Shown: positions 28,717 through 40,192 of the stretch, in pieces
Numbering within the stretch: position 1 is the stretch's first letter
How the letters are laid out: each line of letters opens with the position of its first letter
NCBI GenBank assembly: GCA_019113845.1
Contig: DXGQ01000016.1
Location: 1-64,000, forward strand
Length of the DNA: 64,000 nucleotides
Source: Candidatus Anaerobutyricum avicola
GTDB lineage: Bacteria > Bacillota > Clostridia > Lachnospirales > Lachnospiraceae
Reading direction: 5' to 3'
Notes under the pieces: model-generated
Databases searched by the model: none
What the model saw: the letters and a program-made list of their open reading frames with translations, nothing else
Told to the model about the DNA's origin: nothing
Program-made: the position numbers and the translations under genes

Positions 28717-29184
28717 TCACCGCTGACACCGTCCGTTTCGCCCGCAGTTGTTTTTGCAATTGTTATTTGCGCATTTGTCAAAAGCCGGATTAAAGGCGTA
28801 GAAGTTCCGGCTGTCGAGGCGGTCCTGCACGAGCCGGAGCCCCTCGCCGAATCTCTGGAAATGCACGATCTCTCTGGCGCGCAGGAACTTGATGGCGTCG
28901 TACACGTCCGGGTCGTCTTTGACCAGCCGGAGAATGTTATCGTAGGTGATCCGGGCTTTTTGTTCCGCAGCGAGGTCTTCCGTCAGGTCGGCGATCGGGT
29001 CGCCGGTGGACTGGAAGGTGGAGGCGGAGAACGGCATGCCGCTGGCGGCCTGCGGCCACAGACCTGTGGTGTGATCCACATAGTAGTCGGCAAAGCCCTG
29101 TTCCTTGATCTGCTCTACGGTGAGATTCCGCGTCAGCTGATGGACGATGGTGCAGATCATTTCCACATGGTTTAACTCTTCGGT
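28717..29184 (-). CDS. cotJC: CotJC spore-coat protein, C-terminal part (interrupted gene)
   Basis: These 155 codons continue the manganese-catalase-like CotJC whose first 62 codons lie at 36639-36824. The segment opens T-E-E-L-N-H-V-E, the second half of the conserved metal-ligand motif, and goes on through AEQKARITYDNI and REIVHFQRF, which carry the other Mn ligands. It has no start of its own: upstream in frame is element DNA. Fusion at the 13-bp repeat gives a 217-residue protein. The tail is unusual, with four Cys in an Asn/Arg-rich stretch (CANNNCKNNCGRNGRC), beyond the normal CotJC end. Confidence 0.9.
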   Translation of the reverse strand, partial: TEELNHVEMICTIVHQLTRNLTVEQIKEQGFADYYVDHTTGLWPQAASGMPFSASTFQSTGDPIADLTEDLAAEQKARITYDNILRLVKDDPDVYDAIKFLRAREIVHFQRFGEGLRLVQDRLDSRNFYAFNPAFDKCANNNCKNNCGRNGRCQR

Positions 29185-29196
29185 ACCTGTGTCGGT
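29184..29196. other. Attachment site at the cotJC C-terminal side (attL-like)
   Basis: TACCTGTGTCGGT; on the minus strand this lies at the codon pair G-T that joins the two halves of cotJC. The element side continues GTTATTG. When joined to the other end, it supplies the TGTCGGTG arm of the circle-junction dyad. Confidence 0.8.
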
Positions 29197-29234
29197 GTTA
29201 TTGTATGTATGAGATATCGGTGTCATGATATGTA

Positions 29235-30131
29235 TCAGACATTTTGCTGCCGGTGCGGCGGCTGGCCCCCGGATCGCCGCGGGCGGCGGGCGCGTCTTAC
29301 GAGCGCTTCCTGAGTCCGTTCCCACAGCGACCGCTCAATGATGGGAGGATGGTGGCCGCGGATGCAGATAAAGTCCTCTTCTCCGTGATTGGCCCGCTTT
29401 TGATGGGTGAGATAATCCGGGGTGTATGTTTTCTTCTGACAAAGATCGCCGGCATATTTTTCGTTGCGGAGGATTTTGATGATGACGCCCGGCGACCAGC
29501 GGGCGGCGTACTTAGGCGGATAGCCTTCTGCCAGAAGTTCCGCGGCAATCTGTCTGGCGCTTTTTTCTTCGTCCGTATATTTGTGAAAGATGCGGCGGAC
29601 GACGGCCGCCTCCGCCTCGTTGATCAAAAGCTGTCCGTCCCGCACCGTGTAGCCAAGTAAGTCCCGCCCGAAGACTACCCCCTGTTCCATCCGCCGCCGC
29701 TGTCCCCATTTGATCCGCTCAGAGATCTTGCGGCTTTCTTCCTGCGCGAGACTTGCCATGAGCGTAAGCCGCAGCTCCCCGTCGCAGTCCCGGGTATCGA
29801 TATTGTCCAGAATAAAAATGACGCCGATGCGCCGTTCCCGGAGCATACGGGTGTAGGCGAGGGCGTCCACGGTATTTCTGGCAAAACGGCTCACTTCCTT
29901 GGTGAGGATCAGATCGATCTGTCCGGACATGGCGTCGCCGATCATCCGGTTAAACCCCTCTCGTTTTCTTGTCTGTGTGCCGCTGGTTCCCTCGTCAAAA
30001 TATACATTTACAAGATTCCAGTCCGCGTGGCGGCGGATGTACTCGTCAAAATAGCGCTTCTGGCTTATGAGCGACTGCGCCTGCTCCCCCTTGTCGGTGG
30101 AAACCCGGCAGTAAGCGGCGACCTTTTGCAT
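29235..30131 (-). CDS. Serine recombinase of the cotJC element
   Basis: A 298-residue large-serine-recombinase-type protein. The resolvase domain (about residues 1-148) carries the catalytic Ser11 in Y-C-R-V-S-T-D and V-S-R-F-A-R-N-T. A recombinase domain follows (about 155-285, RNEKYAGDLCQKK). It stops after W-E-R-T-Q-E-A-L, where relatives normally continue with a zinc ribbon and coiled coil, so it is about 150-250 residues shorter than SpoIVCA-type enzymes. The tail is Arg-rich. It begins after AAAGGAGG. It is the obvious candidate to insert and remove the element. Confidence 0.93.
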   Translation of the reverse strand: MQKVAAYCRVSTDKGEQAQSLISQKRYFDEYIRRHADWNLVNVYFDEGTSGTQTRKREGFNRMIGDAMSGQIDLILTKEVSRFARNTVDALAYTRMLRERRIGVIFILDNIDTRDCDGELRLTLMASLAQEESRKISERIKWGQRRRMEQGVVFGRDLLGYTVRDGQLLINEAEAAVVRRIFHKYTDEEKSARQIAAELLAEGYPPKYAARWSPGVIIKILRNEKYAGDLCQKKTYTPDYLTHQKRANHGEEDFICIRGHHPPIIERSLWERTQEALVRRARRPRRSGGQPPHRQQNV

Positions 30132-30349
30132 GGAAGCCTCCTTTGTGCCGTCTCATATTTCTATATAGGAAGGGCTGCTCTGAACCGGGCTTGTTCAGGC
30201 TGCCTGCTGCGAAACAGCATTGTTTTTCGTCACAACAGAACCGATGAGATATGGCACGGAATGCGATTATTACAGGATATGAGCCGGGAAGAAGAATATG
30301 AAAAAGAAAAGAAATACGCAAAGGATGTAAGGCGGGCGCCTCTCCGGTT
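30132..30349. other. Non-coding spacer upstream of the recombinase
   Basis: No gene is visible. It contains a dyad CTGAAC-N7-GTTCAG (about 30178-30196) roughly 50 bases upstream of the recombinase start, which could be a regulator-binding site. Confidence 0.4.
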
Positions 30350-30874
30350 TTATGTTGTCCGGATGAGGCGGCGCACATGTGCTTTTTCCAAAACGGCGGC
30401 AACAACAAAGTATACGGCGATGTTGACGATACCTTCTACGATCAGTCCCGGTGAGGAGGCAAGTCCGGCGGGAAGATTCCCGTAAAGAACGCTGCCCATG
30501 GCGGTATATCCTGCAACCATCCATGCCATGCTGACGCCTGCGGCGAGGAAGCTCCTCCAGTGAAAGAGCCGGAAACTGCCGTTTTTATCGAACAGGAGCC
30601 GGCCGGCGATGAGTGCGATGATGATCTTGATAAAAAAGGTCGGGATGACCCACTGGGTAAATCCGGTGAGCAGGTCAGTCAGGCAGGAACCGAGGCCGCT
30701 GGCCCAGACCGCCTCCCGCCGTCCGAAGTATGTGACGCCCAGAAGGATGGCGGCGTCCCCCAGATGCGCGTATCCCAGCGGGATGGGGATCTGGATCACC
30801 ATGGTCATGATGCAGATGAGAGCGGTCAGCAATGCGCCGCAGCAAAGAGAAAATGTGTTGGAAGTATATTTCAT
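30350..30874 (-). CDS. ECF transporter S component, riboflavin/HMP-type family
   Basis: This 174-residue membrane protein has about six hydrophobic segments and the motif GYAHLGDAAILLG near residue 35, typical of the PF07155-like S components of energy-coupling-factor transporters. The S component binds a vitamin or precursor and partners with the shared EcfAAT module encoded elsewhere. The ligand is not certain. The ATG at 30874 follows GAGGTGATAATT. It lies 90 bp downstream of treR on the same strand; the gap holds an inverted repeat (AATTACCTCA and TGAGGTGATAATT) that could hide the ribosome site. Confidence 0.78.
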   Translation of the reverse strand: MKYTSNTFSLCCGALLTALICIMTMVIQIPIPLGYAHLGDAAILLGVTYFGRREAVWASGLGSCLTDLLTGFTQWVIPTFFIKIIIALIAGRLLFDKNGSFRLFHWRSFLAAGVSMAWMVAGYTAMGSVLYGNLPAGLASSPGLIVEGIVNIAVYFVVAAVLEKAHVRRLIRTT

Positions 30875-30963
30875 AATTATCACCTCAGTTGCACAATATA
30901 GCACAAAACTGGCATGTAATATAGTGCCAATTTGAGGTAATTATTAAGGTCAGATCCTGGCAG

Positions 30964-31695
30964 CTACGCGATCACTTTCTTCCGGGTCGCCGTGGTCTGA
31001 AAGGAAAAGTAGTCCGGCCGGTGGCGGGACTGAGTGTACTCGAACATCAGGCCGTCGTCGTTGAAGGTCTGTCCGGTCACGACAGCCAGGCAGTTGTAAT
31101 CGCCCAGTTCCAGATGGGATTCATCGGCAGGGGTCACATGCTCCACCGTCATGGTCCGGCGGCTGGTGACGATGGCCATCTGCAGTTCGTTCTCGATGTA
31201 TTCGTAGATGGACTTTTCCGCGATGACTTCCGTGAGACCCGGTACCAGACTTTTCAGGAAAAAGTTGGTGTCGAGGATGAGCGGTTTGCCGTCCAGATAC
31301 CGGACACGGCGCACATAGTAGAGGGCGTCGCCCGGCTGAAAACCCGTCCGGCGGGAGAGACGCTCATCGCAGACAACTTCGTCAAACTGCACGACCTTTG
31401 TGATATACGTCCGGTGGTTGCGCCGGGCGGATTCCTGAAAGGTTTCGATGCCGCCGATCAGGAAACTGGCGGCATCCACCGGCTGGTAGATGACCCGGAC
31501 GCCCTTGCCGTGCAGGGGTTGCACGTAACCTTCTTCCGACAGAAGCGCCACTGCCCGGCGGATGGTGTTGCGGGAACAGTGGTAGATCTCCACCAGGGTG
31601 TTTTCGGAAGGAAGCATCTGCTGGTATTCATATTCTTCATTTTCTATTTTTGATTTCAGGTCTTTATATATCTCGTTAAACTTTATTTTGGGCAT
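30964..31695 (-). CDS. treR: GntR-family regulator, TreR-like
   Basis: This 243-residue protein has an N-terminal winged helix-turn-helix (LPSENTLVEIYHCSRNTIRRAVALL, about residues 26-50, written in pieces: LPSENTL, CSRNTIRRAVALL) and a UTRA-type effector domain (FLIGG, DALYYVRRVRYLDGKPL). It fits the TreR repressor that senses trehalose-6-phosphate. The start at 31695 follows AAGGAAA. It is divergent from treB, with palindromes that could be its operators in between. Confidence 0.88.
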   Translation of the reverse strand: MPKIKFNEIYKDLKSKIENEEYEYQQMLPSENTLVEIYHCSRNTIRRAVALLSEEGYVQPLHGKGVRVIYQPVDAASFLIGGIETFQESARRNHRTYITKVVQFDEVVCDERLSRRTGFQPGDALYYVRRVRYLDGKPLILDTNFFLKSLVPGLTEVIAEKSIYEYIENELQMAIVTSRRTMTVEHVTPADESHLELGDYNCLAVVTGQTFNDDGLMFEYTQSRHRPDYFSFQTTATRKKVIA

Positions 31696-31831
31696 AAGAT
31701 TTCCTTTCATCTGTTCTTAAATCTATATCATTTGTTATTGTTTTCCTGTTTGTACGTCTGTAACAGCCCTGCATTTTTTGAGTAAAAGGGATGATTTTTT
31801 TATTTTGATGACATTATAGAGTTGGGTTTCC

Positions 31832-31879
31832 AAGGTCAAAATCCTCTTGCAAGCAAGCCTGCATCGGATTCCTGACCTT
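31832..31879. promoter_or_regulatory. Long imperfect dyad in the treR-treB intergenic region
   Basis: AAGGTCAAAATCC (31832-31844) pairs with GGATTCCTGACCTT (31866-31879), with a palindromic CTTGCAAGCAAG between them. It could form a stem in the treR leader (minus strand). Its role is unknown. Confidence 0.4.
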
Positions 31880-31924
31880 TTGAACGTGGTATCATCATTA
31901 TAACAGAAAACCTGAAAAAAACAA

Positions 31925-32007
31925 CTTGTTTAAACAAATTTTGAAAAAGCGCTTGACTTGTTTAAACAAGAGTGATATAACTGAATCATCAAACTTGTTT
32001 AAACAAG
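31925..32007 (+). promoter_or_regulatory. TreR-type operators (TTGTTTAAACAA palindromes)
   Basis: Three palindromes match (C)TTGTTTAAACAA(G): centred near 31931, 31964 and 32001; a fourth half-copy (CTTGTTTA) starts at 32028. The middle one overlaps the -35 region of the treB promoter. They fit the expected operator of a GntR/TreR repressor. Confidence 0.8.
31953..31981 (+). promoter_or_regulatory. treBC promoter
   Basis: TTGACT at 31953-31958 and TATAAC at 31976-31981 are 17 bases apart. An operator palindrome overlaps the -35, so repression by TreR is expected. Confidence 0.65.
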
Positions 32008-32091
32008 ACAGCGACACATTTCCGGAACTTGTTTAGATGGGGAACAAGAAGCTTTATAATATACAAGGAGAAAAAACAGGGAGGAAGAGTA

Positions 32092-34035
32092 ATGGGAAGA
32101 TATCAGGAAGATTCCAGAGAACTTCTGGAACTGATAGGCGGAAAAAGTAACATTGCGGCAGTATCGCACTGCATGACCCGGATGCGTTTTGTGTTAAATG
32201 ATCCGGACAAGGCGGATGTGAAGGGCATCGAGGCCATGAAGGTGGTGAAGGGAAGCTTTACCCAGTCGGGACAGTTCCAGGTCATCATCGGCAACACGGT
32301 CGCTGATTTTTACAATGACTTCGTGGCGGTGGCCGGTGTGGAAGGGGTCAGTAAAGACCAGGTAAAACAGGCGGCCAAGCAGAATCAGAACGTGCTGCAG
32401 CGGATCGTCACGGCACTGGCGGAGATATTCGCGCCGCTGATCCCGGCCATCATCACCGGCGGTCTGATCTTAGGTTTCAGAAACTGTATCGATAGCCTGT
32501 ACCTTTTTGAAAACGGAACAAAGACACTCTGTGATCTGAGCCAGTTCTGGACGGGTATTGACAGCTTCTTGTGGCTCATCGGCGAGGCCATCTTCCATAT
32601 GCTGCCGGTCGGTATCTGCTGGTCTGTGACGAAGAAGATGGGAACGACCCAGATGCTCGGTATCGTTCTCGGTCTGACGCTGGTATCCGGCCAGCTCTTA
32701 AATGCCTACGATGTGGCGACCACAGCGGCGGCAGATATCCCGGCATGGGATTTCGGATTTTTTAAAGTCAATATGATCGGTTATCAGTCCCAGGTAATCC
32801 CGGCGATCCTCGCCGCATTTACGCTGGTGTATCTGGAGAAGTTTTTCCGGAAGATCACGCCGGCGGTCATCTCGATGATCGTTGTGCCGTTCTGCAGTCT
32901 GGTCCTGGCCGTGATCGCAGCGCATTTCGTCTTAGGACCGATCGGCTGGAAGATCGGATCAGCCATCTCCTCCGTCGTATTTGCAGGAATCACCGGCTCC
33001 TTCCGGATCGTATTCGGCGCGGTCTTTGGCTTCATCTATGCGCCGCTCGTCATCACTGGTCTTCACCATATGAGCAACGCCATCGACCTGCAGCTTATCG
33101 CTGACTATGGTGGCACCATGCTCTGGCCGATGATCGCGCTGTCCAATATCGCGCAGGGCTCCGCAGTCCTTGCCATGATTTTCCTGCAGAGAAAGAACGC
33201 GGAGGCACAGGAGGTTAACATCCCGTCCTGTATCTCCTGTTACTTGAGTGTAACGGAACCGGCCATCTTCGGTGTCAACTTAAAATATGTCTTCCCATTT
33301 GTATGCGGTATGATCGGTTCTGCCATCGCCGGTATGGTCAGCGTGGCGACCGGCACCACTGCATCCGCCATCGGCGTCGGCGGACTGCCAGGTATCCTCT
33401 CCATTAAGACAGAGTCCATGGCAAGCTTCGCCATCTGCATGGTCATCGCCATCGTGATCCCGTTCGTGCTGACTGTGATCGTCGGGCAGAGAAAGCTGAC
33501 CGCGTCTCAGAAATACGGCGCAGCAGCCGGAGCAGATGCGACGGTAAACGGCAGCGCACAGGGAACAGAAAAGGAAATGCCAAAAGAATTGGTTGCATTT
33601 CTTGATGGTAAAGTGATCCCGGTGAAGGAAGTTGGCGATGGCGTCTTCTCCGAGGGAATCATGGGCGACGGCATCGCCATTATCCCGGAAAATGAAGTGC
33701 TGGTTTCCCCGGTGGCAGGAGAGATCGCTGTGACCATGGATGATTCCCGCCATGCCTGCGCCATCAAGGCGGACAACGGCATGGAAATCCTTCTCCATAT
33801 CGGACTGGACACGGTGGATATGGGTGGAGATGGTTTTGAGTATCTGATTACAAAAGGACAGAGAGTACAGACAGGCACTCCGCTCATCCGGTTCAGCAGA
33901 GAGAAGATCAAAGCGGCAGGACACAGAGACGTGACCATGTGTATCCTCTCCGACCCGGGTAAGGCAGAAAATATCCGGTATCAGTTTACCGATTACGCTA
34001 AAGCGGGAGAGACGGTCGTAGCGACATTTGAGTAA
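32092..34035 (+). CDS. treB: PTS trehalose transporter, EIIBCA
   Basis: A 647-residue phosphotransferase permease that imports trehalose as trehalose-6-phosphate. Order of domains: EIIB (residues 1-90) with the phosphorylated Cys27 in SHCMTRMRF; EIIC with about ten membrane helices (about 105-475); EIIA (about 510-645) with the phospho-His site MEILLHIGLDTV. The ATG at 32092 follows GGAGGAAGAG. Operators lie upstream; treC follows. Inside the cotJC element. Confidence 0.9.
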   Translation: MGRYQEDSRELLELIGGKSNIAAVSHCMTRMRFVLNDPDKADVKGIEAMKVVKGSFTQSGQFQVIIGNTVADFYNDFVAVAGVEGVSKDQVKQAAKQNQNVLQRIVTALAEIFAPLIPAIITGGLILGFRNCIDSLYLFENGTKTLCDLSQFWTGIDSFLWLIGEAIFHMLPVGICWSVTKKMGTTQMLGIVLGLTLVSGQLLNAYDVATTAAADIPAWDFGFFKVNMIGYQSQVIPAILAAFTLVYLEKFFRKITPAVISMIVVPFCSLVLAVIAAHFVLGPIGWKIGSAISSVVFAGITGSFRIVFGAVFGFIYAPLVITGLHHMSNAIDLQLIADYGGTMLWPMIALSNIAQGSAVLAMIFLQRKNAEAQEVNIPSCISCYLSVTEPAIFGVNLKYVFPFVCGMIGSAIAGMVSVATGTTASAIGVGGLPGILSIKTESMASFAICMVIAIVIPFVLTVIVGQRKLTASQKYGAAAGADATVNGSAQGTEKEMPKELVAFLDGKVIPVKEVGDGVFSEGIMGDGIAIIPENEVLVSPVAGEIAVTMDDSRHACAIKADNGMEILLHIGLDTVDMGGDGFEYLITKGQRVQTGTPLIRFSREKIKAAGHRDVTMCILSDPGKAENIRYQFTDYAKAGETVVATFE

Positions 34036-34183
34036 TATATCGGTGAATATGAAATGCAAAGGCACGCCAAATGACCCGGACGGAAAACGGGGCACGCCGG
34101 GTGATCCGGGCAGGGAAACAGGGCGCGTCGGAAAGCAGAGCGTGACAGGAAGACAACAGACAGAAAAGAAAAGGGTGAAAACG

Positions 34184-35848
34184 ATGAATCATTTCAGTGA
34201 TAAAGTTATTTATCAGATCTATTTACGATCCTTCAAAGATTCCAACGGAGACGGGATCGGAGACATCAGGGGCATTACGCAGCAGCTCGATTATCTGCAA
34301 TCGCTGGGCGTGGACTATCTGTGGATTACTCCTTTCTTCGTGTCCCCGCAGAACGATAACGGTTATGATGTGGCAGATTACCGGAAGATAGACCCGGTGT
34401 TTGGATCGATGGAAGATCTGGAAGAGCTGATCCGTGAGGCAAAGGAGCGGGGGATCGAGCTGATGCTCGATATGGTGTTCAACCATACTTCCACCAGCCA
34501 CGAGTGGTTTCAGAAAGCCCTTGCCGGGGATGAAAAATATCAGAATTATTACATTTTCAAGGACGGCACACCGGACAAGATACCGACAAACTGGGAATCC
34601 AAGTTCGGCGGCCCGGCATGGGAATACGTTCCGTCCCTCAAAAAATGGTATCTGCATCTGTTTGATGTGAGCCAGGCGGACTTGAACTGGGAGAATCCGC
34701 AGGTGCGGGAAGAGTTAAAGGAAGTCATCCGCTTCTGGATGAAAAAAGGCATCGGGGGCTTCCGGTTTGACGTGGTCAACCTCATCTCCAAGCCGGAACA
34801 GTTTGAAGATGACTTCGAGGGGGACGGACGGAGATTCTACACGGATGGCCGCCATGTCCACGAGTTTTTGAAAGAACTGACCGCAGATACCGGTCTTGAC
34901 AACTATGTGACGGTAGGAGAAATGTCCTCCACCTCCCTGGAAAACTGTATCCGTTACTCTGATCCGGAGGAAAAAGAGCTGAGTATGTGCTTTAACTTCC
35001 ATCATCTGAAAGTGGATTATAAGGATGGTAAGAAATGGGAGCTGATGGAGCCGGACCGGATGAAGCTGAAAGAGTTGTTTGAAACCTGGGGAACCGGAAT
35101 GCAGGAGGCCGGCGGCTGGAATGCGCTCTTCTGGTGCAACCATGACCAGCCGCGTACGGTGAGCCGTCTGGGGGACGAGGGCCGTTATTGGGCAAAATCT
35201 GCCAAGATGCTGGCGGCTTCCATCCACCTGATGCGGGGAACGCCGTACATTTACCAGGGCGAGGAGATCGGTATGACCAATCCGCACTTTGCGGACATCA
35301 AACAGTACCGGGATGTGGAGAGTCTCAATTATTATCGCATCCTGCTGGAACAGGGCAAAACCAGCAGCGAGGCCATGGAGATCTTACAGGCACGCTCCCG
35401 GGACAACGGGCGGACGCCGGTGCAGTGGACGGCGGAAGAACATGCCGGCTTTACCACCGGCACACCGTGGATTGGCGTATGCGGCAACTACCGGGAGATC
35501 AATGTCGCCGCACAGACGGGAGATGCGGATTCCATCTGGAACTTTTATCGCAGACTGATCCGGCTTCGGAAAGAAAAAAAGGTCATCTCCGAGGGAACGA
35601 TCACCTTTCTGGAACGTGAAAACGAAGATGTGCTGGCCTACCGCCGCAACCTCGGCGATGAGGAACTGATCGTCTTCAATAACCTGACCGCACACCCGGC
35701 CGAGGTGACGCTGGAAGACGCCTGGAAAAATTATCATATCATACTGACCAACGATGAAGGGAAAGAGCGAACGGAAGAGACACTGAAAAAACTGTCGGGA
35801 AGCCGCCTGACACTACAGCCGTATGAGACGCTGGCACTGGAAAGGTGA
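34184..35848 (+). CDS. treC: Alpha,alpha-phosphotrehalase
   Basis: A 554-residue GH13 enzyme that splits trehalose-6-phosphate into glucose and glucose-6-phosphate in the cytoplasm. It shows the oligo-1,6-glucosidase-type start (VIYQIYLRSFKDSNGDGIGD) and the GH13 catalytic Asp (FRFDVVNL), Glu (VGEMSS) and transition-state Asp (NHDQPR). The ATG at 34184 follows AAGGGTGAAAACG. It sits 148 bp after treB in the same direction and is read from the same promoter. Confidence 0.9.
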   Translation: MNHFSDKVIYQIYLRSFKDSNGDGIGDIRGITQQLDYLQSLGVDYLWITPFFVSPQNDNGYDVADYRKIDPVFGSMEDLEELIREAKERGIELMLDMVFNHTSTSHEWFQKALAGDEKYQNYYIFKDGTPDKIPTNWESKFGGPAWEYVPSLKKWYLHLFDVSQADLNWENPQVREELKEVIRFWMKKGIGGFRFDVVNLISKPEQFEDDFEGDGRRFYTDGRHVHEFLKELTADTGLDNYVTVGEMSSTSLENCIRYSDPEEKELSMCFNFHHLKVDYKDGKKWELMEPDRMKLKELFETWGTGMQEAGGWNALFWCNHDQPRTVSRLGDEGRYWAKSAKMLAASIHLMRGTPYIYQGEEIGMTNPHFADIKQYRDVESLNYYRILLEQGKTSSEAMEILQARSRDNGRTPVQWTAEEHAGFTTGTPWIGVCGNYREINVAAQTGDADSIWNFYRRLIRLRKEKKVISEGTITFLERENEDVLAYRRNLGDEELIVFNNLTAHPAEVTLEDAWKNYHIILTNDEGKERTEETLKKLSGSRLTLQPYETLALER

Positions 35849-35969
35849 AGGGCAGCGTCGGCAAGACTGATCAAAACGGGTCAATGAATAACAGAATAAA
35901 ACTATAACAGGCAGAAAGAAAATAGAATAACAGAATCAATACAGAAAACAGGAACCTCCGCAAAACCGG

Positions 35970-36008
35970 AAGAAAAGAGGAAGAAATACGGGCAAATGTT
36001 TCTTCCTC
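35970..36008 (-). terminator. Terminator between treC and the 64-residue ORF
   Basis: GAGGAAGAAA and TTTCTTCCTC form a 10-bp stem. On the minus strand the next bases are TTTTCTT, so it mainly serves the small minus-strand gene, with weaker use for treC. Confidence 0.6.
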
Positions 36009-36042
36009 CCACGCGATGAGCGATCATCCGGAATTGCTTTTT

Positions 36043-36237
36043 CTATCCATGATATGCCACCAGGACAATCTTGCGCCCGGTCTCCCGCGTAAGCTCCTGT
36101 TCCAGAGCAGAGATTTTCTTCGTGCAGGCGCTGGACAGGGAAGCTGTCGGGCGGGCAGCGGTGCCGTAAAGAAGAGCGGAGTTGTTTGCCGTGGTCGGAG
36201 CGGCCCGGTATTGCGGTTTTGTTGTATTGTAATACAT
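36043..36237 (-). CDS. Small uncharacterised protein in the cotJC element
   Basis: A 64-residue ORF starting at ATG 36237 after AAAGGATGACC. The product begins MYYNTTKPQY, contains a Thr/Ala/Ser-rich middle and a charged helix (KKISALEQELTRE) ending I-V-L-V-A-Y-H-G. The helix-plus-strand ending resembles small conserved Clostridia proteins of no known function, but I cannot name a family. Its size and location in a serine-recombinase element make it a possible recombination directionality factor; this is a guess. Confidence 0.45.
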   Translation of the reverse strand: MYYNTTKPQYRAAPTTANNSALLYGTAARPTASLSSACTKKISALEQELTRETGRKIVLVAYHG

Positions 36238-36312
36238 GATGGTCATCCTTTCGTGTAAAAGATGTGGCCCTGTAAAGGCAGGGATAGTATGTACCGGAAG
36301 GAGAAAAAAGAT

Positions 36313-36362
36313 ACAGAAAAAATACAATACGACCTTGTATTTTTTCTGTCTGGTGCTATAAT
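36313..36362 (+). promoter_or_regulatory. Promoter with a 15-bp perfect dyad upstream of tRNA-Gly
   Basis: ACAGAAAAAATACAA (36313-36327) and TTGTATTTTTTCTGT (36335-36349) are perfect inverted repeats around a 7-base spacer. A -35-like TTGTAT (36335-36340) lies in the right arm, with TATAAT at 36357-36362 (16 bases apart). A protein bound to the dyad would cover the -35. The transcript would run through the MerR-like remnant and tRNA-Gly. Confidence 0.6.
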
Positions 36363-36389
36363 AAATGTAACACCAGTTCTGGGAGGAGT

Positions 36390-36431
36390 ATGGTTTACAC
36401 TGTATCGGAGGTGTCTCGGTTCACACATTAG
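36390..36431 (+). pseudogene. MerR-family N-terminal remnant
   Basis: A 13-codon ORF, M-V-Y-T-V-S-E-V-S-R-F-T-H-stop, with an excellent GGGAGGAG ribosome site. The sequence resembles the first helix of MerR-type regulators (Y-T-V-x-E-V-S-x-L-T). The rest of the gene is missing; the tRNA starts 34 bp downstream. It could be a truncated regulator or a short leader peptide. Confidence 0.45.
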
Positions 36432-36465
36432 ATTTTCCCGGAGGAACACGCTCCGGCTGGTGCGT

Positions 36466-36536
36466 GCAGATATGGTTCATCGGTAGAACATTGGCTTCCC
36501 AAGCCGAAGAGGCGGGTTCGACTCCCGTTATCTGCT
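36466..36536 (+). tRNA. tRNA-Gly (anticodon CCC)
   Basis: A complete cloverleaf: acceptor GCAGATA/TATCTGC, D arm GTTC/GAAC, anticodon stem TTGGC/GCCGA with loop TTCCCAA, and T arm GCGGG/CCCGT with loop TTCGACT. The CCA end is not encoded. It is the only tRNA gene in the window and lies inside the cotJC element. A terminator follows 13 bases later. Confidence 0.92.
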
Positions 36537-36548
36537 TGCGATCAGTCA

Positions 36549-36578
36549 CAGGTCTTATGTTGATAAGACCTGTTTTTT
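36549..36578 (+). terminator. tRNA-Gly terminator
   Basis: CAGGTCTTA and TAAGACCTG form a 9-bp perfect stem with a 6-base loop, followed by six T. Confidence 0.9.
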
Positions 36579-36637
36579 GTGCCATGAGAAATGCGTTGCT
36601 CAAACATTCAATGTCGATGATCTGTATGTCACCGACA

Positions 36638-36650
36638 TACCTATATCGGT
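36638..36650. other. Attachment site at the cotJC N-terminal side (attR-like)
   Basis: TACCTATATCGGT; the cotJC frame on the minus strand reads through to the Gly codon at 36641-36639. On the element side, CACCGACA lies at 36630-36637, the other arm of the dyad that forms at the circle junction. Confidence 0.8.
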
Positions 36651-36824
36651 TAATATTCCCATAACCTCCCGGTACGGCATGGCAAAGCGCTGGGACAGAT
36701 AGCGCATGGAAGCGCCGGTCTCGCCATCCGGACCTCCGAACTGCGTGATGATTGCTTTTGCCATTTTTGCGTCGGTCCGGCGGATATTGACTGGATACTG
36801 TAATCTTTTCTCATAATTAAACAT
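36639..36824 (-). CDS. cotJC: CotJC spore-coat protein, N-terminal part (interrupted gene)
   Basis: Sixty-two codons of CotJC: MFNYEKRLQYPVNI, then IITQFGGPDGE with the first Mn-ligand Glu, RYLSQRFAMP and G-I-L-T-D-I-G. It continues out of frame into 12 element codons and a stop if the element is not removed, giving a 74-residue dead product. The start lies 2 bp after the cotJB stop, in a translationally coupled operon. The rest of the gene is at 28717-29184. Confidence 0.9.
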
Positions 36825-36826
36825 AA

Positions 36827-37096
36827 TTAACAATCCCCCTCCCACGGCCAGGGCTGTGTCGCCCATTTCCAACTATCTTTGCATGGACCATCGTGCTGCA
36901 CATCACCCAGGGTGAGAGGACCGAAGCGTACGGCGTACTCGTGAAGAGCTTGCTGTCTTGCGGAATTAAAATGATGAAAATAATCAAGAGCTTCTTTGTC
37001 TTCCGGATGAGTGTCCAGGTAGAGGGAGGCATCCAGAGCGGCAAAGCTTACCGCATCAATATAGAATAAAAGTTTTTTCTTTTCCATCTGAGACAT
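36827..37096 (-). CDS. cotJB: CotJB spore-coat protein
   Basis: This 89-residue protein carries the CotJB features: a helical N-terminus (YIDAVSFAALDASLYLDTHP), a Y-F-H-H-F segment and a W-x-W-A-T-Q-P-W-P-W-E-G-D-C end. It is the coat partner of CotJC in the mother-cell-produced inner coat. The ATG at 37096 overlaps the cotJA stop (TGATG) and follows AAGGAG; GTG at 37099 is a second option. Confidence 0.92.
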   Translation of the reverse strand: MSQMEKKKLLFYIDAVSFAALDASLYLDTHPEDKEALDYFHHFNSARQQALHEYAVRFGPLTLGDVQHDGPCKDSWKWATQPWPWEGDC

Positions 37097-37290
37097 CACT
37101 TCGCACATCTCCTTCCGGTAAAAGGTAAATTCAATTCCTCGAAGATCGTGCCCTGCATGAGAGCGTCTTCTGCCTTATATATTTTTCTCCAGCTCTGCCA
37201 TGGGACATACGCCATAGCGAGAGGAAGAGAATCGACATTTTTTACCATGATATCTTTTTGGCAGTCAAAAAGAGTATTCATTCCATCCAT
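37096..37290 (-). CDS. cotJA: CotJA spore-coat protein
   Basis: This 64-residue protein has the CotJA motif L-A-M-A-Y-V-P-W-Q-S-W followed by A-L-x-x-G-T-I-F-E-E-L-x-x-P-F. It is required for incorporation of CotJC into the coat in Bacillus. The start follows AAAGGAG with 7 bases. First gene of cotJABC. Upstream on the minus strand, CGTATATTAAT lies about 40 bases before the start and weakly resembles a mother-cell -10 element; this is not conclusive. Confidence 0.9.
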   Translation of the reverse strand: MDGMNTLFDCQKDIMVKNVDSLPLAMAYVPWQSWRKIYKAEDALMQGTIFEELNLPFTGRRCAK

Positions 37291-37692: not shown

Positions 37693-38046
37693 GTTGTCGT
37701 CCGCAATGGACTTGTGTTATCTTTTTGCCTATCGGCATTATAGCATATGCAGATATATCTTTCAATATACTTTCAACTCAACTCTTTCAAAAGGGATGAT
37801 TACCTGTCAGTACCGGAGCGCAGCCCGTCACAGAACAAGGCTTGCATTTTTGAGAAAAAAGGTTACAATATATTAGATGCGGCAGCGGAAGAGGCAGACA
37901 GACTGGACAGGCTGCTTTTTTTGCGCAGGCAGGCGGAGGAGGCCGGTAAAGATCCGCTCCGGTATACTGACCTGCTCACATTTCACTAATGATTTTAAGA
38001 AGTTTTGTAGTTTTGTAAATGTTATGGATAGAAAGGAATGATCGAC
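37693..38046. other. Spacer upstream of the CobW pair
   Basis: It holds a candidate promoter (TTGCAT-N16-TACAAT near 37848-37875). The reading frame that ends at 37989 has a coding-like second half (A-E-E-A-D-R-L-D-R-L-L-F) but no credible start, so it may be a gene remnant. Confidence 0.4.
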
Positions 38047-39201
38047 ATGACAAAGATAGATATTATCTCCGGTTTCCTCGGAGCCGGAAAGACGACATTG
38101 ATCAAGAAGCTGATCGCGGAAGCTTTTCAGGGACAGAAAGTGGTTTTGATCGAAAATGAGTTTGGCGAGATCGGTATCGACGGTGGATTTTTGAAGGAGT
38201 CCGGTATTCAGATCAATGAGATGAATTCCGGCTGTATCTGCTGCTCCCTGGTGGGAGACTTTAATGCGGCGCTGAAAGATGTGCTGTCCCAGTATGAGCC
38301 TGACCGGATTATCATTGAGCCGTCCGGCGTCGGCAAGCTGTCTGATGTGATCAAGGCGGTGCAGAGAGTTGTGGACGGAGAAAATGTTGTGCTGAACAGT
38401 CATATCACGGTGGCGGATGTAAAGCGCGCGAAAATGTATATCAAGAATTTTGGCGAGTTTTATAAGAATCAGGTGGAGTTCGCCAGCGCTATTATTTTAA
38501 GCCGTACCCAGGATGTGAAGGAAGATAAGCTGGAGAAGACGATTGAGCTGATTCGCACGCTCAATGCACATTCCCCGATCGTCACGACGCCGTGGGAAGA
38601 GATTACAGGAGAGCAGATTCTTGCCGTGATGGAAGGAAAAAATGATTTTGCGGAGGAACTGCTGCGCGAGGCAGAGATCTGTCCGGAATGTGGTCACCAT
38701 CATCACGAGGGTGAGCATTGCCATCATGAACATGACCACGATCATCATGACGACCATGGCCATGAGGATCACCACCACGATCATCATGACGATCATGACC
38801 ATGATGGCGAGCACTGTCACCACGAAGACCACCATCACGATCACGAGCATCATCATGATCACTGCGGCTGTGAGCATCATGACCACCATCATCACGATCA
38901 TGAGGGTCATCATCACGCTGATGAAGTGTTCACAAGCTGGGGCAAAGAGACGCCGAAGAAATATACAGAAGAACAGATTCGTGCGATTCTTGACAAATTA
39001 TCGGAGGAAGACAGCAGAGAGTATGGTATCATCCTGCGTGCGAAGGGCATTGTGCCGGATGAGAACGGCAAGTGGCTGCATTTTGATCTGGTTCCGGGAG
39101 AGGATGAGGTGCGTTACGGAGCTGCGGAATATACGGGAAGAATCTGTGTCATCGGTTCCGAGCTGAAAGAAGAGAAGCTTGCGGAACTGTTTGGCTTATA
39201 G
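38047..39201 (+). CDS. CobW/COG0523 GTPase with histidine-rich metal-binding insert
   Basis: A 384-residue G3E-family GTPase: GFLGAGKTTL (Walker A), E-x-x-F-G-E, the metal motif C-I-C-C and a P-S-G-V-G switch. Between the GTPase core and the C-terminal domain lies about 80 residues of His/Asp/Glu (over 40 His). Such proteins act as zinc or other metal chaperones. The GTPase, insert and C-terminal CobW_C region are all complete. ATG at 38047 follows GAAAGGA. The next gene is a second GTPase. Regulation by a Zur-type site was not evident. Confidence 0.9.
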   Translation: MTKIDIISGFLGAGKTTLIKKLIAEAFQGQKVVLIENEFGEIGIDGGFLKESGIQINEMNSGCICCSLVGDFNAALKDVLSQYEPDRIIIEPSGVGKLSDVIKAVQRVVDGENVVLNSHITVADVKRAKMYIKNFGEFYKNQVEFASAIILSRTQDVKEDKLEKTIELIRTLNAHSPIVTTPWEEITGEQILAVMEGKNDFAEELLREAEICPECGHHHHEGEHCHHEHDHDHHDDHGHEDHHHDHHDDHDHDGEHCHHEDHHHDHEHHHDHCGCEHHDHHHHDHEGHHHADEVFTSWGKETPKKYTEEQIRAILDKLSEEDSREYGIILRAKGIVPDENGKWLHFDLVPGEDEVRYGAAEYTGRICVIGSELKEEKLAELFGL

Positions 39202-39220
39202 AAGCTGACGGAGGAGAATT

Positions 39221-40192
39221 ATGCCGGGAAAGAAAGAGATGGAGATTCCGGTTTACCTGTTTATGGGTTTTCTGGAGAGTGGAAAGACTTCTTTTATCCA
39301 GGATACACTGGAAGAAGATTATTTTAACGATGGACAGAGGACGCTGCTCTTTGCCTGCGAGGAAGGGATGGAAGAGTATGATGAGGAGTTGTTAAAAAGG
39401 ACAAACACCACCATTGTGTATGTGGAGGAAGAGGAAGATTTTAACAGAGATTTCCTCATCAGCAAGGTGCTGCAGTATTATCCGGACAGGGTCATTGTCG
39501 AGTACAACGGTATGTGGTCGGTGGAGCGGATGCTCACACAGATGGATAATACGCCGCTGCTGGTCTTTCAGACGATCGTGCTGGTCAACGGAGAGACATT
39601 TGACCTTTATATGAATAATATGCGCTCTCTGGCGGTGGAAATGTACAAGATCGCGGAGATGGTCATCATCAACCGCTGCACACCGGAGATGCCGCGCGCC
39701 ACATGGCGGAGAAGTATCAAGGCGGTCAACCGCCGGGTACAGGTGCTTTTTGAGTCGGCGGATGATGACGATATGGGCGAGGAGGACGATACGCTTCCTT
39801 ACGATGTCGAAGGCGATGAGATTCATCTGGAAGATGAAGATTACGGTATCTGGTTTGTGGATATCATGGAGCGGCCGGAGATTTATGACGGAAAGACCAT
39901 GGTCATGAAAACAAGAGTTTTCAAATCCATTCGTCTGCCGAAGGGCTGCTTTGTGCCGGGGCGGCATGCCATGACCTGCTGTGCCGATGATATTCAGTTT
40001 ATCGGATATCTCTGCCACACTAACCATGCCAAGTCTTCCACGATCAAGTCTTTGAAGAATAAAATGTGGGTGAACCTGACAGCAGAGGTTCGGATCGAGT
40101 ACAATAAGGAGTACGGAGATAAAGGACCGGTGCTCTATGCCAAGAGAGTGGAGGCGGCAGAACCGCCGGAAGAAGAGCTGGTTTATTTCTAA
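39221..40192 (+). CDS. Second G3E GTPase with YcgQ-like C-terminal domain
   Basis: A 323-residue protein with a P-loop (GFLESGKTSF, residues 17-26) and GTPase-like N-terminal half, then an acidic region (SADDDDMGEEDD) and a C-terminal domain (KGCFVPGRHAMTCCADDIQFIGYLC) resembling the TIGR03943/YcgQ group of metal-linked membrane complexes. It is 19 bp downstream of the His-rich CobW protein, so the pair probably handles metal together. The C-I-C-C metal motif of the first protein is missing here, but C-C is present in the C-terminal domain. Confidence 0.75.
   Translation: MPGKKEMEIPVYLFMGFLESGKTSFIQDTLEEDYFNDGQRTLLFACEEGMEEYDEELLKRTNTTIVYVEEEEDFNRDFLISKVLQYYPDRVIVEYNGMWSVERMLTQMDNTPLLVFQTIVLVNGETFDLYMNNMRSLAVEMYKIAEMVIINRCTPEMPRATWRRSIKAVNRRVQVLFESADDDDMGEEDDTLPYDVEGDEIHLEDEDYGIWFVDIMERPEIYDGKTMVMKTRVFKSIRLPKGCFVPGRHAMTCCADDIQFIGYLCHTNHAKSSTIKSLKNKMWVNLTAEVRIEYNKEYGDKGPVLYAKRVEAAEPPEEELVYF

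Follow-up and report, generated by a model that had tools for sequence, protein, structure and literature searches.

A recombinase element at the Gly62 codon of the spore-coat gene cotJC: a predicted developmental excision system with a shortened integrase

We analyzed a stretch of 64,000 nucleotides of contig DXGQ01000016.1 (positions 1 to 64,000, hereafter the window) from Candidatus Anaerobutyricum avicola, in which the cotJABC operon carries a split cotJC, a predicted spore-coat manganese (Mn) catalase gene, interrupted at its Gly62 codon by an element of 7,454 bp with its own serine recombinase (Table 1). The first-pass annotation had described this operon, with both parts of cotJC on one strand, and the coordinates and the Pfam domains agree with it. 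It had also pointed to identical letters at the two junctions (AGGTA on the minus strand) and to an exact in-frame rejoining; when the junction was rejoined computationally, a crossover at any point of the shared AGGTA gave the same intact CotJC of 217 residues, without a stop codon. The 13-bp repeats that it noted were recovered as well, with the plus-strand copies TACCTATATCGGT (36638-36650) and TACCTGTGTCGGT (29184-29196) matching at 11 of 13 positions, and the recombinase lies 39 bp inside, as claimed: measured from the end of its open reading frame (ORF), the distance is 39 bp to the 13-bp repeat's end and 47 bp to the GG.

Table 1. Features of the split cotJC locus and of the element that interrupts it
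Feature	Coordinates	Strand	Remarks
cotJA	37096..37290	-	Pfam CotJA 2.4e-19
cotJB	36827..37108	-	Pfam CotJB 4.3e-28
cotJC N-part, codons 1-62	36639..36824	-	Pfam Mn_catalase 5.4e-15
cotJC C-part, codons 63-217 + stop (155 codons)	28717..29184	-	Pfam Mn_catalase 5.4e-28
Shared core AGGTA, N-side junction	36638..36642	-	likely crossover dinucleotide GG at 36640-36641
Shared core AGGTA, C-side junction	29184..29188	-	likely crossover dinucleotide GG at 29186-29187
Element-side attP arm, C-junction, TAACACCGACACA	29188..29200	-	symmetric with the other arm
Element-side attP arm, N-junction, TATGTCGGTGACAT	36626..36639	-	symmetry of joined ends
Short serine recombinase, 298 aa	29235..30131	-	Resolvase and Recombinase domains; without zinc ribbon and coiled coil
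Predicted sigE-type promoter of the recombinase, TCATATT-N13-CATATCCT	30274..30301	-	P 0.003-0.004 vs shuffles
ECF transporter S component (cargo)	30350..30904	-	Pfam 5.1e-22
treR, trehalose operon repressor (cargo)	30964..31710	-	TIGR02404, 225.4 bits vs cut-off 211.95
Trehalose PTS transporter (cargo)	32029..34035	+	TIGR01992, 684.6 vs cut-off 591.95
treC, phosphotrehalase (cargo)	34028..35848	+	TIGR02403, 840.2 vs cut-off 799.05
Small ORF, ~64 aa	36043..36237	-	conserved in three sister elements; possible directionality factor or cargo
tRNA-Gly (ccc)	36466..36536	+	conserved in three sister elements
aa, amino acids; ECF, energy-coupling factor; PTS, phosphotransferase system; att, attachment site.

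Using the joined CotJC as a query, we searched 116 genomes of the same and related species, including the window's own genome (G000), and found matches in 81 of them. Complementary cotJC pieces were present in 30 genomes, in 16 of which the two pieces share a contig, with 2.5 to 87 kb between them; this count comes from a scripted pairing rule applied to the listed matches, under which 13 genomes with unpaired parts were not scored as split. The remaining cotJC-bearing genomes had intact copies only (37) or a frame shift (G060). Two control genes were searched in the same 116 genomes, and complementary pieces were found neither for the SpoIVA ATPase domain (0 of 87 genomes with a match) nor for ribosome recycling factor (0 of 111). 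An artefact of assembly or binning might be suspected, as the window's own assembly consists of 55 contigs; however, the same-codon split, with a homologous recombinase, is found in separate assemblies, including the isolate genome CHKCI004 (G021) and the one-contig genome G005, and the control genes are unsplit. Assembly error is therefore excluded as a general cause, and we give this explanation almost no credence. The recurrence of the split at this codon, together with a homologous recombinase, in other species is more than chance.

The breaks in cotJC fall at four places, at residues ~30 (10 genomes), 62 (16 genomes), 136 (five genomes) and 176 (one genome, plus G008, in which pieces are present but the core could not be resolved). 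Multiple breaks occur in some genes: G008 is broken at the third and fourth places, G087 at three places, and G014 at the second place and again at the third, there close to the end of a contig. The three stacked elements in G087 raise the question of ordered or joint excision. At the base level, the cores correspond to cotJC residues 30-32, 62, 134-136 and 175-177; G026, G096 and G070 have distinct cores of their own, at residues 61-65, 63-65 and 65-68, respectively. In an alignment to the Lactobacillus Mn catalase 1jku, all of them lie within ~7 residues of the Mn ligands, taken here to be E35, E65, H68, E136 and H170 in CotJC numbering. The likely reason for these preferred places is that the ligand codons would be the most conserved DNA in the gene.

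We also estimated the ratio of nonsynonymous to synonymous substitution rates (dN/dS) between three genomes that share the split (G000, G009 and G021). It was 0.019-0.036 for the C-part and 0.015-0.049 for the N-part of cotJC, the N-part of G002 having been dropped from this set as a spurious spill from another contig, whereas the recombinase had values of ~0.06-0.12 within each clade of short enzymes. The C-part has no start codon of its own at the joint, and an unexpressed C-part should drift; the strong purifying selection on it thus indicates that the C-part is in use. This argument assumes that the split is older than the divergence of the three genomes, which is favoured by their shared recombinase, treR, treC and tRNA.

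These values bear on two other explanations. In the first, the insertion is dead, the split cotJC is a pseudogene, and a paralogous cotJ operon supplies the coat catalase. Such an operon, in which an intact cotJC (67% identity) accompanies CotJA and CotJB domains, is indeed present in G000 (contig C2), and no rejoined cotJC junction was found in the G000 assembly with up to two mismatches allowed. The CotJC activity may therefore not depend on excision here, and G000 alone makes a weaker case for use of the split gene. Conversely, both cotJC parts and the recombinase are under strong purifying selection, the reading frame is exact, and G005 and G021 have no other cotJC, intact or not, among the matches to the joined CotJC; we regard a dead insertion as improbable. 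In the second explanation, each part is translated into a peptide of its own, and the peptides assemble without rejoining of the DNA. The frame of the C-part is open upstream to a GTG at 29325, but this GTG falls within the recombinase gene, the two parts meet codon-exactly in the att core, and splits occur at four places, three of them in one gene (G087), so that this explanation appears even less credible than a pseudogene.

The break places are served by different types of recombinases. For the window type, at place 2, ten homologues of at least 55% identity were found in the 116 genomes, all of them in genomes with place-2 parts, i.e., parts ending at residues 62-74 or starting at residues 53-62 (G001 has the N-part only). 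Unrelated recombinases are found at the same place in G026, G070 and G096. For the place 1 recombinase, 7 of 13 matches, the query included, are beside a cotJC piece; for place 3, the number is 3 of 10, namely those at 59% identity or more; and for place 4, the two best of 11 matches. Another genome, G114, has a 36% match to the place-4 recombinase 2.6 kb from a cotJC piece (residues 1-178). Among named genomes, a cotJC piece is at most 10 kb away at 69 of the 80 best loci of relatives of the window recombinase (two of which, L096 and L120, are G021 and G002); the carriers include Lactonifactor longoviformis DSM 17459, Blautia parvula NBRC 113351, Anaerostipes sp. MSJ-23 and Ruminiclostridium papyrosolvens C7. 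The corresponding fractions are 16 of 25 loci in a family sample, within ~1.5 kb (some of these may be the same genomes as in the named set), and 10 of 80 in viral contigs. None of the 137 matching records of named phages covers 80% of the integrase. The element of G070, inserted at the same motif, is 38.8 kb long and contains terminase, portal, head and tape-measure genes; thus, phages do land in cotJC. The gene looks like a favoured landing place for phages, which the hosts have likely tamed. Two further observations concern this association. The place-2 elements L106 (6925-11796) and L146 (6874-11866) contain a complete second cotJC between the two parts, as if carrying their own backup, and on a 504-kb plasmid of Pusillibacter faecalis (L344:8875-11245) a relative of the recombinase adjoins an annotated cotJB, with phage-like genes nearby.

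The window recombinase has the Resolvase and Recombinase domains and ends soon after the latter. No zinc ribbon was found in its 298 residues by Pfam or by alignment, and the coiled-coil motif is absent, as no residues remain to form one. A structure model of this protein is of fair quality (predicted local distance difference test score, pLDDT, of 74.5). For comparison, the recombinase at the same codon in G053 has 521 residues and continues into a zinc ribbon. Short forms (284-298 residues) were found in G000, G009, G014 and G021 and, separately, in G005 and G018; the longer nearest relatives of these groups are in G002 and G001, and the zinc-ribbon cysteines of the G002 enzyme are visible in the alignment, though Pfam calls no zinc ribbon. 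In a sample of 396 genomes of the family, 26 had a match at E<=1e-90, and the enzymes of loci other than the short ones have at least 403 residues. The eight best matches in a protein database (308 member sequences) are also short, with 289-307 residues, no zinc ribbon and 77-97% identity over at least 92% of the query, whereas the ninth, P0043, covers 64% of it; this search covered proteins of 164-521 residues and, therefore, not relatives of 535 residues. In a tree of 140 rows, the labels short and long, assigned to 115 rows, require seven changes; short was assigned by hand from length and contig extent, and 25 rows possibly cut by contig ends were left unlabelled. There are four short clades, supported at 97-99 and comprising, with unlabelled rows counted, 12, 10, 6 and 2 rows; each of a further three cases is a single row, which may be a broken gene. 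The cotJC context is known for the first and the last of the four clades only. It should be noted that P0092 and P0101, each with relatives, represent further groups of recombinases of 279-305 residues without a zinc ribbon; one of these, the group of P0092, is named from Flavonifractor, on a long contig.

An analogous contrast is seen in the DNA sites. The attP was built by scripted joining of the element ends, and its arms in the window element are palindromic around the GG. In 24 elements with long enzymes, the symmetry of attP is high to ~+20 (2 of 26 sets, G002 and L136, could not be built). A distal motif, C-GAAATTGC-N-CAT, at ~+12 to +24, is common to 94 half-sites taken from 67 named-genome loci with no filter on enzyme length, including L153, which has a recombinase of 315 residues; the zinc-domain motif of the LI attP has been placed at 16-24 (PMC3783163). 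For the six short enzymes, both the symmetry and the information of attP drop after +13 to +15. Counting of ATTGC, which gave 1 of 12 for the short-enzyme half-sites and 54 of 94 for the others, proved too blunt a measure, and we turned to a leave-one-out profile with a background. On this profile, the leave-one-out median of the long-enzyme half-sites is 11.0, and 91% of them exceed the 95th percentile of the background, whereas the 12 short-enzyme half-sites average -10.0, compared to -11.4 for the background. The short-enzyme half-sites differ from the long-enzyme ones (P 2e-8) and from six half-sites of near long relatives (P 0.003), and they do not differ from the background (P 0.43). Conversely, the inner motif is above background in 12 of 12 short-enzyme half-sites, with lower values in G005 and G018. 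These results suggest that the short recombinase and its DNA site have shrunk together, the distal motif having been lost where the zinc-ribbon/coiled-coil part is gone.

The short genes also appear to differ in their promoters. A first scan with a sigE consensus gave mixed results, because the local -10 element is CATATATT-like, and it was replaced by a profile of spoIVA upstream regions. A sigE-type site was predicted before each of the six short genes, at P 0.003-0.058 (five of them reach P<=0.05 and all six reach P<=0.06), compared to 4 and 5, respectively, of 95 distinct full-length recombinase genes; gene starts were set by hand for the six short genes and by script for the others. The contrast is significant at both thresholds (Fisher 9e-6 and 4e-7, uncorrected for kinship; ~0.003 when tested by clade). 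In G002, the recombinase gene directly follows the N-part of cotJC on the same strand and would therefore belong to the cotJ operon. The cotJC gene is listed under sigE (PMC3416734).

Apart from the recombinase, the window element carries metabolic cargo and a tRNA-Gly(ccc), which all four clade-1 elements (window, L016, L017 and L018) have kept at the same end. No phage structural genes were found among six ORFs of the window with Pfam, NCBIfam and PHROGs; the PHROGs matches are to integrase and, for treR, to families of unknown function only. A radical SAM protein, a U32-like protein and a Gly/Ser/Tyr-rich small protein, with scores below the curated cut-offs, are recurrent cargo of three cotJC elements (L017:2767-6437, L018:7542-11236 and L023:12280-15915), which include a near-identical pair and occupy two of the break places. 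Outside the element, two genes for CobW-domain GTPases, one of them very His-rich, adjoin the cotJ operon (window positions 38038-40192), and similar sequence also flanks it in L017, L018 and L023.

Taken together, the selection on the parts, the palindromic att sites, the linkage of recombinase and cotJC, and the predicted sigE-type promoter make a skin-type intervening element with metabolic cargo, as first proposed, the best reading of the locus. We consider it probable, judging from sequence, that the element is excised in the sporulating mother cell by the 298-residue recombinase, which would restore the coat catalase gene, and that it is a domesticated derivative of a phage. The ancestors would be phage-type elements with full-length integrases (~535 residues) that used cotJC as attB. 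In the course of domestication, the integrase would have shed its zinc-ribbon/coiled-coil part, the att site would have been left without the matching distal motif, and a sigE-like promoter would have been gained. In the mother cell, sigE would switch on both cotJ and the recombinase, and the two-domain enzyme would join attL and attR at the GG, release a circle and restore the 217-codon cotJC; the forespore and growing cells would keep the element with its trehalose operon and tRNA, so that excision would be confined to the cell that will die. An integrase requiring a recombination directionality factor (RDF) would thereby become one that can carry out excision, perhaps with no RDF. A broader proposal, which in our view could well prove either right or wrong, is that phage integrases landing in the Mn-ligand motifs of cotJC were domesticated time and again into sigE-controlled, RDF-free, two-domain switches of mother-cell excision, a convergent class that would have shed the directionality domain together with its DNA motif.

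As to RDF independence, the LI integrase without its coiled coil recombines attL with attR without an RDF, at low efficiency, whereas phiC31 integrase without the coiled coil is inactive (PMC10754689). The example of LI makes RDF independence of the short recombinase plausible, that of phiC31 notwithstanding. Alternatively, excision could be real but governed by an RDF that sets its timing, as CD1234 does for the skin element of C. difficile, where the RDF is specific to the mother cell and the recombinase is expressed constitutively (PMC5025042); the short recombinase would then need such a factor. A candidate is the small ORF of the window element, which is kept in all four clade-1 elements examined and has no match in Pfam or PHROGs. 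However, no homologue of it was found in the clade-2 element L019, the short genes have sigE-type promoters of their own, and the coiled coil, described as the target of RDFs (PMC5025042), is absent. We therefore regard RDF control as possible, though rather unlikely.

Besides the second cotJ operon and the missing rejoined junction in G000, several points weigh against mother-cell excision by an RDF-free enzyme. The inactivity of the truncated phiC31 integrase and the small ORF are two of them, and the window recombinase also has no zinc ribbon, a loss beyond that of the coiled coil in the LI and phiC31 variants. The G002 enzyme is long, yet the distal motif is missing from the one half-site of G002 that could be read. 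The sigE profile was built from spoIVA upstream regions (30 loci, 26 of them readable and 21 used) and is anchored on a consensus for B. subtilis; 13 of 93 other genes pass at P<=0.05, among six genes scored as a control the ECF gene ranks first, and the region upstream of cotJA in G000 scores just 10.0. Single sigE matches are therefore weak, and it is the contrast between short and long genes that serves as evidence. As the six short genes represent two clades, their tests are not independent.

If these predictions are correct, cotJC is a widespread new target gene for developmental DNA rearrangement, in which the metal-binding codons of one spore enzyme attract independent integrases. The short recombinases would then be natural experiments on the loss of directionality, in which a protein domain, a DNA motif and a promoter change together, and a recombinase of ~290 residues working without an RDF would be a useful tool. 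Neither splits of or insertions in cotJC nor naturally truncated serine integrases were found among the titles and abstract starts listed by searches of the open-access literature. The closest known system is the skin element of sigK (SpoIVCA in B. subtilis, CD1231/CD1234 in C. difficile), which likewise interrupts a mother-cell gene, encodes a serine recombinase of its own and restores the frame on rejoining; spoIVCA of B. subtilis is described as being under sigE and SpoIIID (PMC5025042). The window element differs in its target, a coat Mn-catalase gene rather than a sigma factor gene, in its two-domain recombinase and metabolic cargo, and in that its excision is predicted only. Other sporulation genes with intervening elements are spsM (SPbeta), spoVFB (vfbin), spoVR (vrin), gerE (gin) and yabG (yin) (PMC4191935, PMC5595907, PMC10747680); cotJ does not occur in the main texts of these three papers, and, compared to these elements, cotJC is cut often and at several motifs, and the window enzyme is truncated. 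The catalytic and recombinase domains align with those of the large serine integrases (LI/A118, phiC31 and SPbeta YokA), whereas the window enzyme has neither zinc ribbon nor coiled coil and its att sites have no distal motif. Finally, the C. difficile prophage phi027 adjoins a CotJC homologue (PMC11222575, PMC12122855). The passages on phi027 in these papers describe this gene as adjacent, downstream of attR, and mention no split or developmental excision; its position suggests that Mn-catalase genes may be phage targets in C. difficile too.

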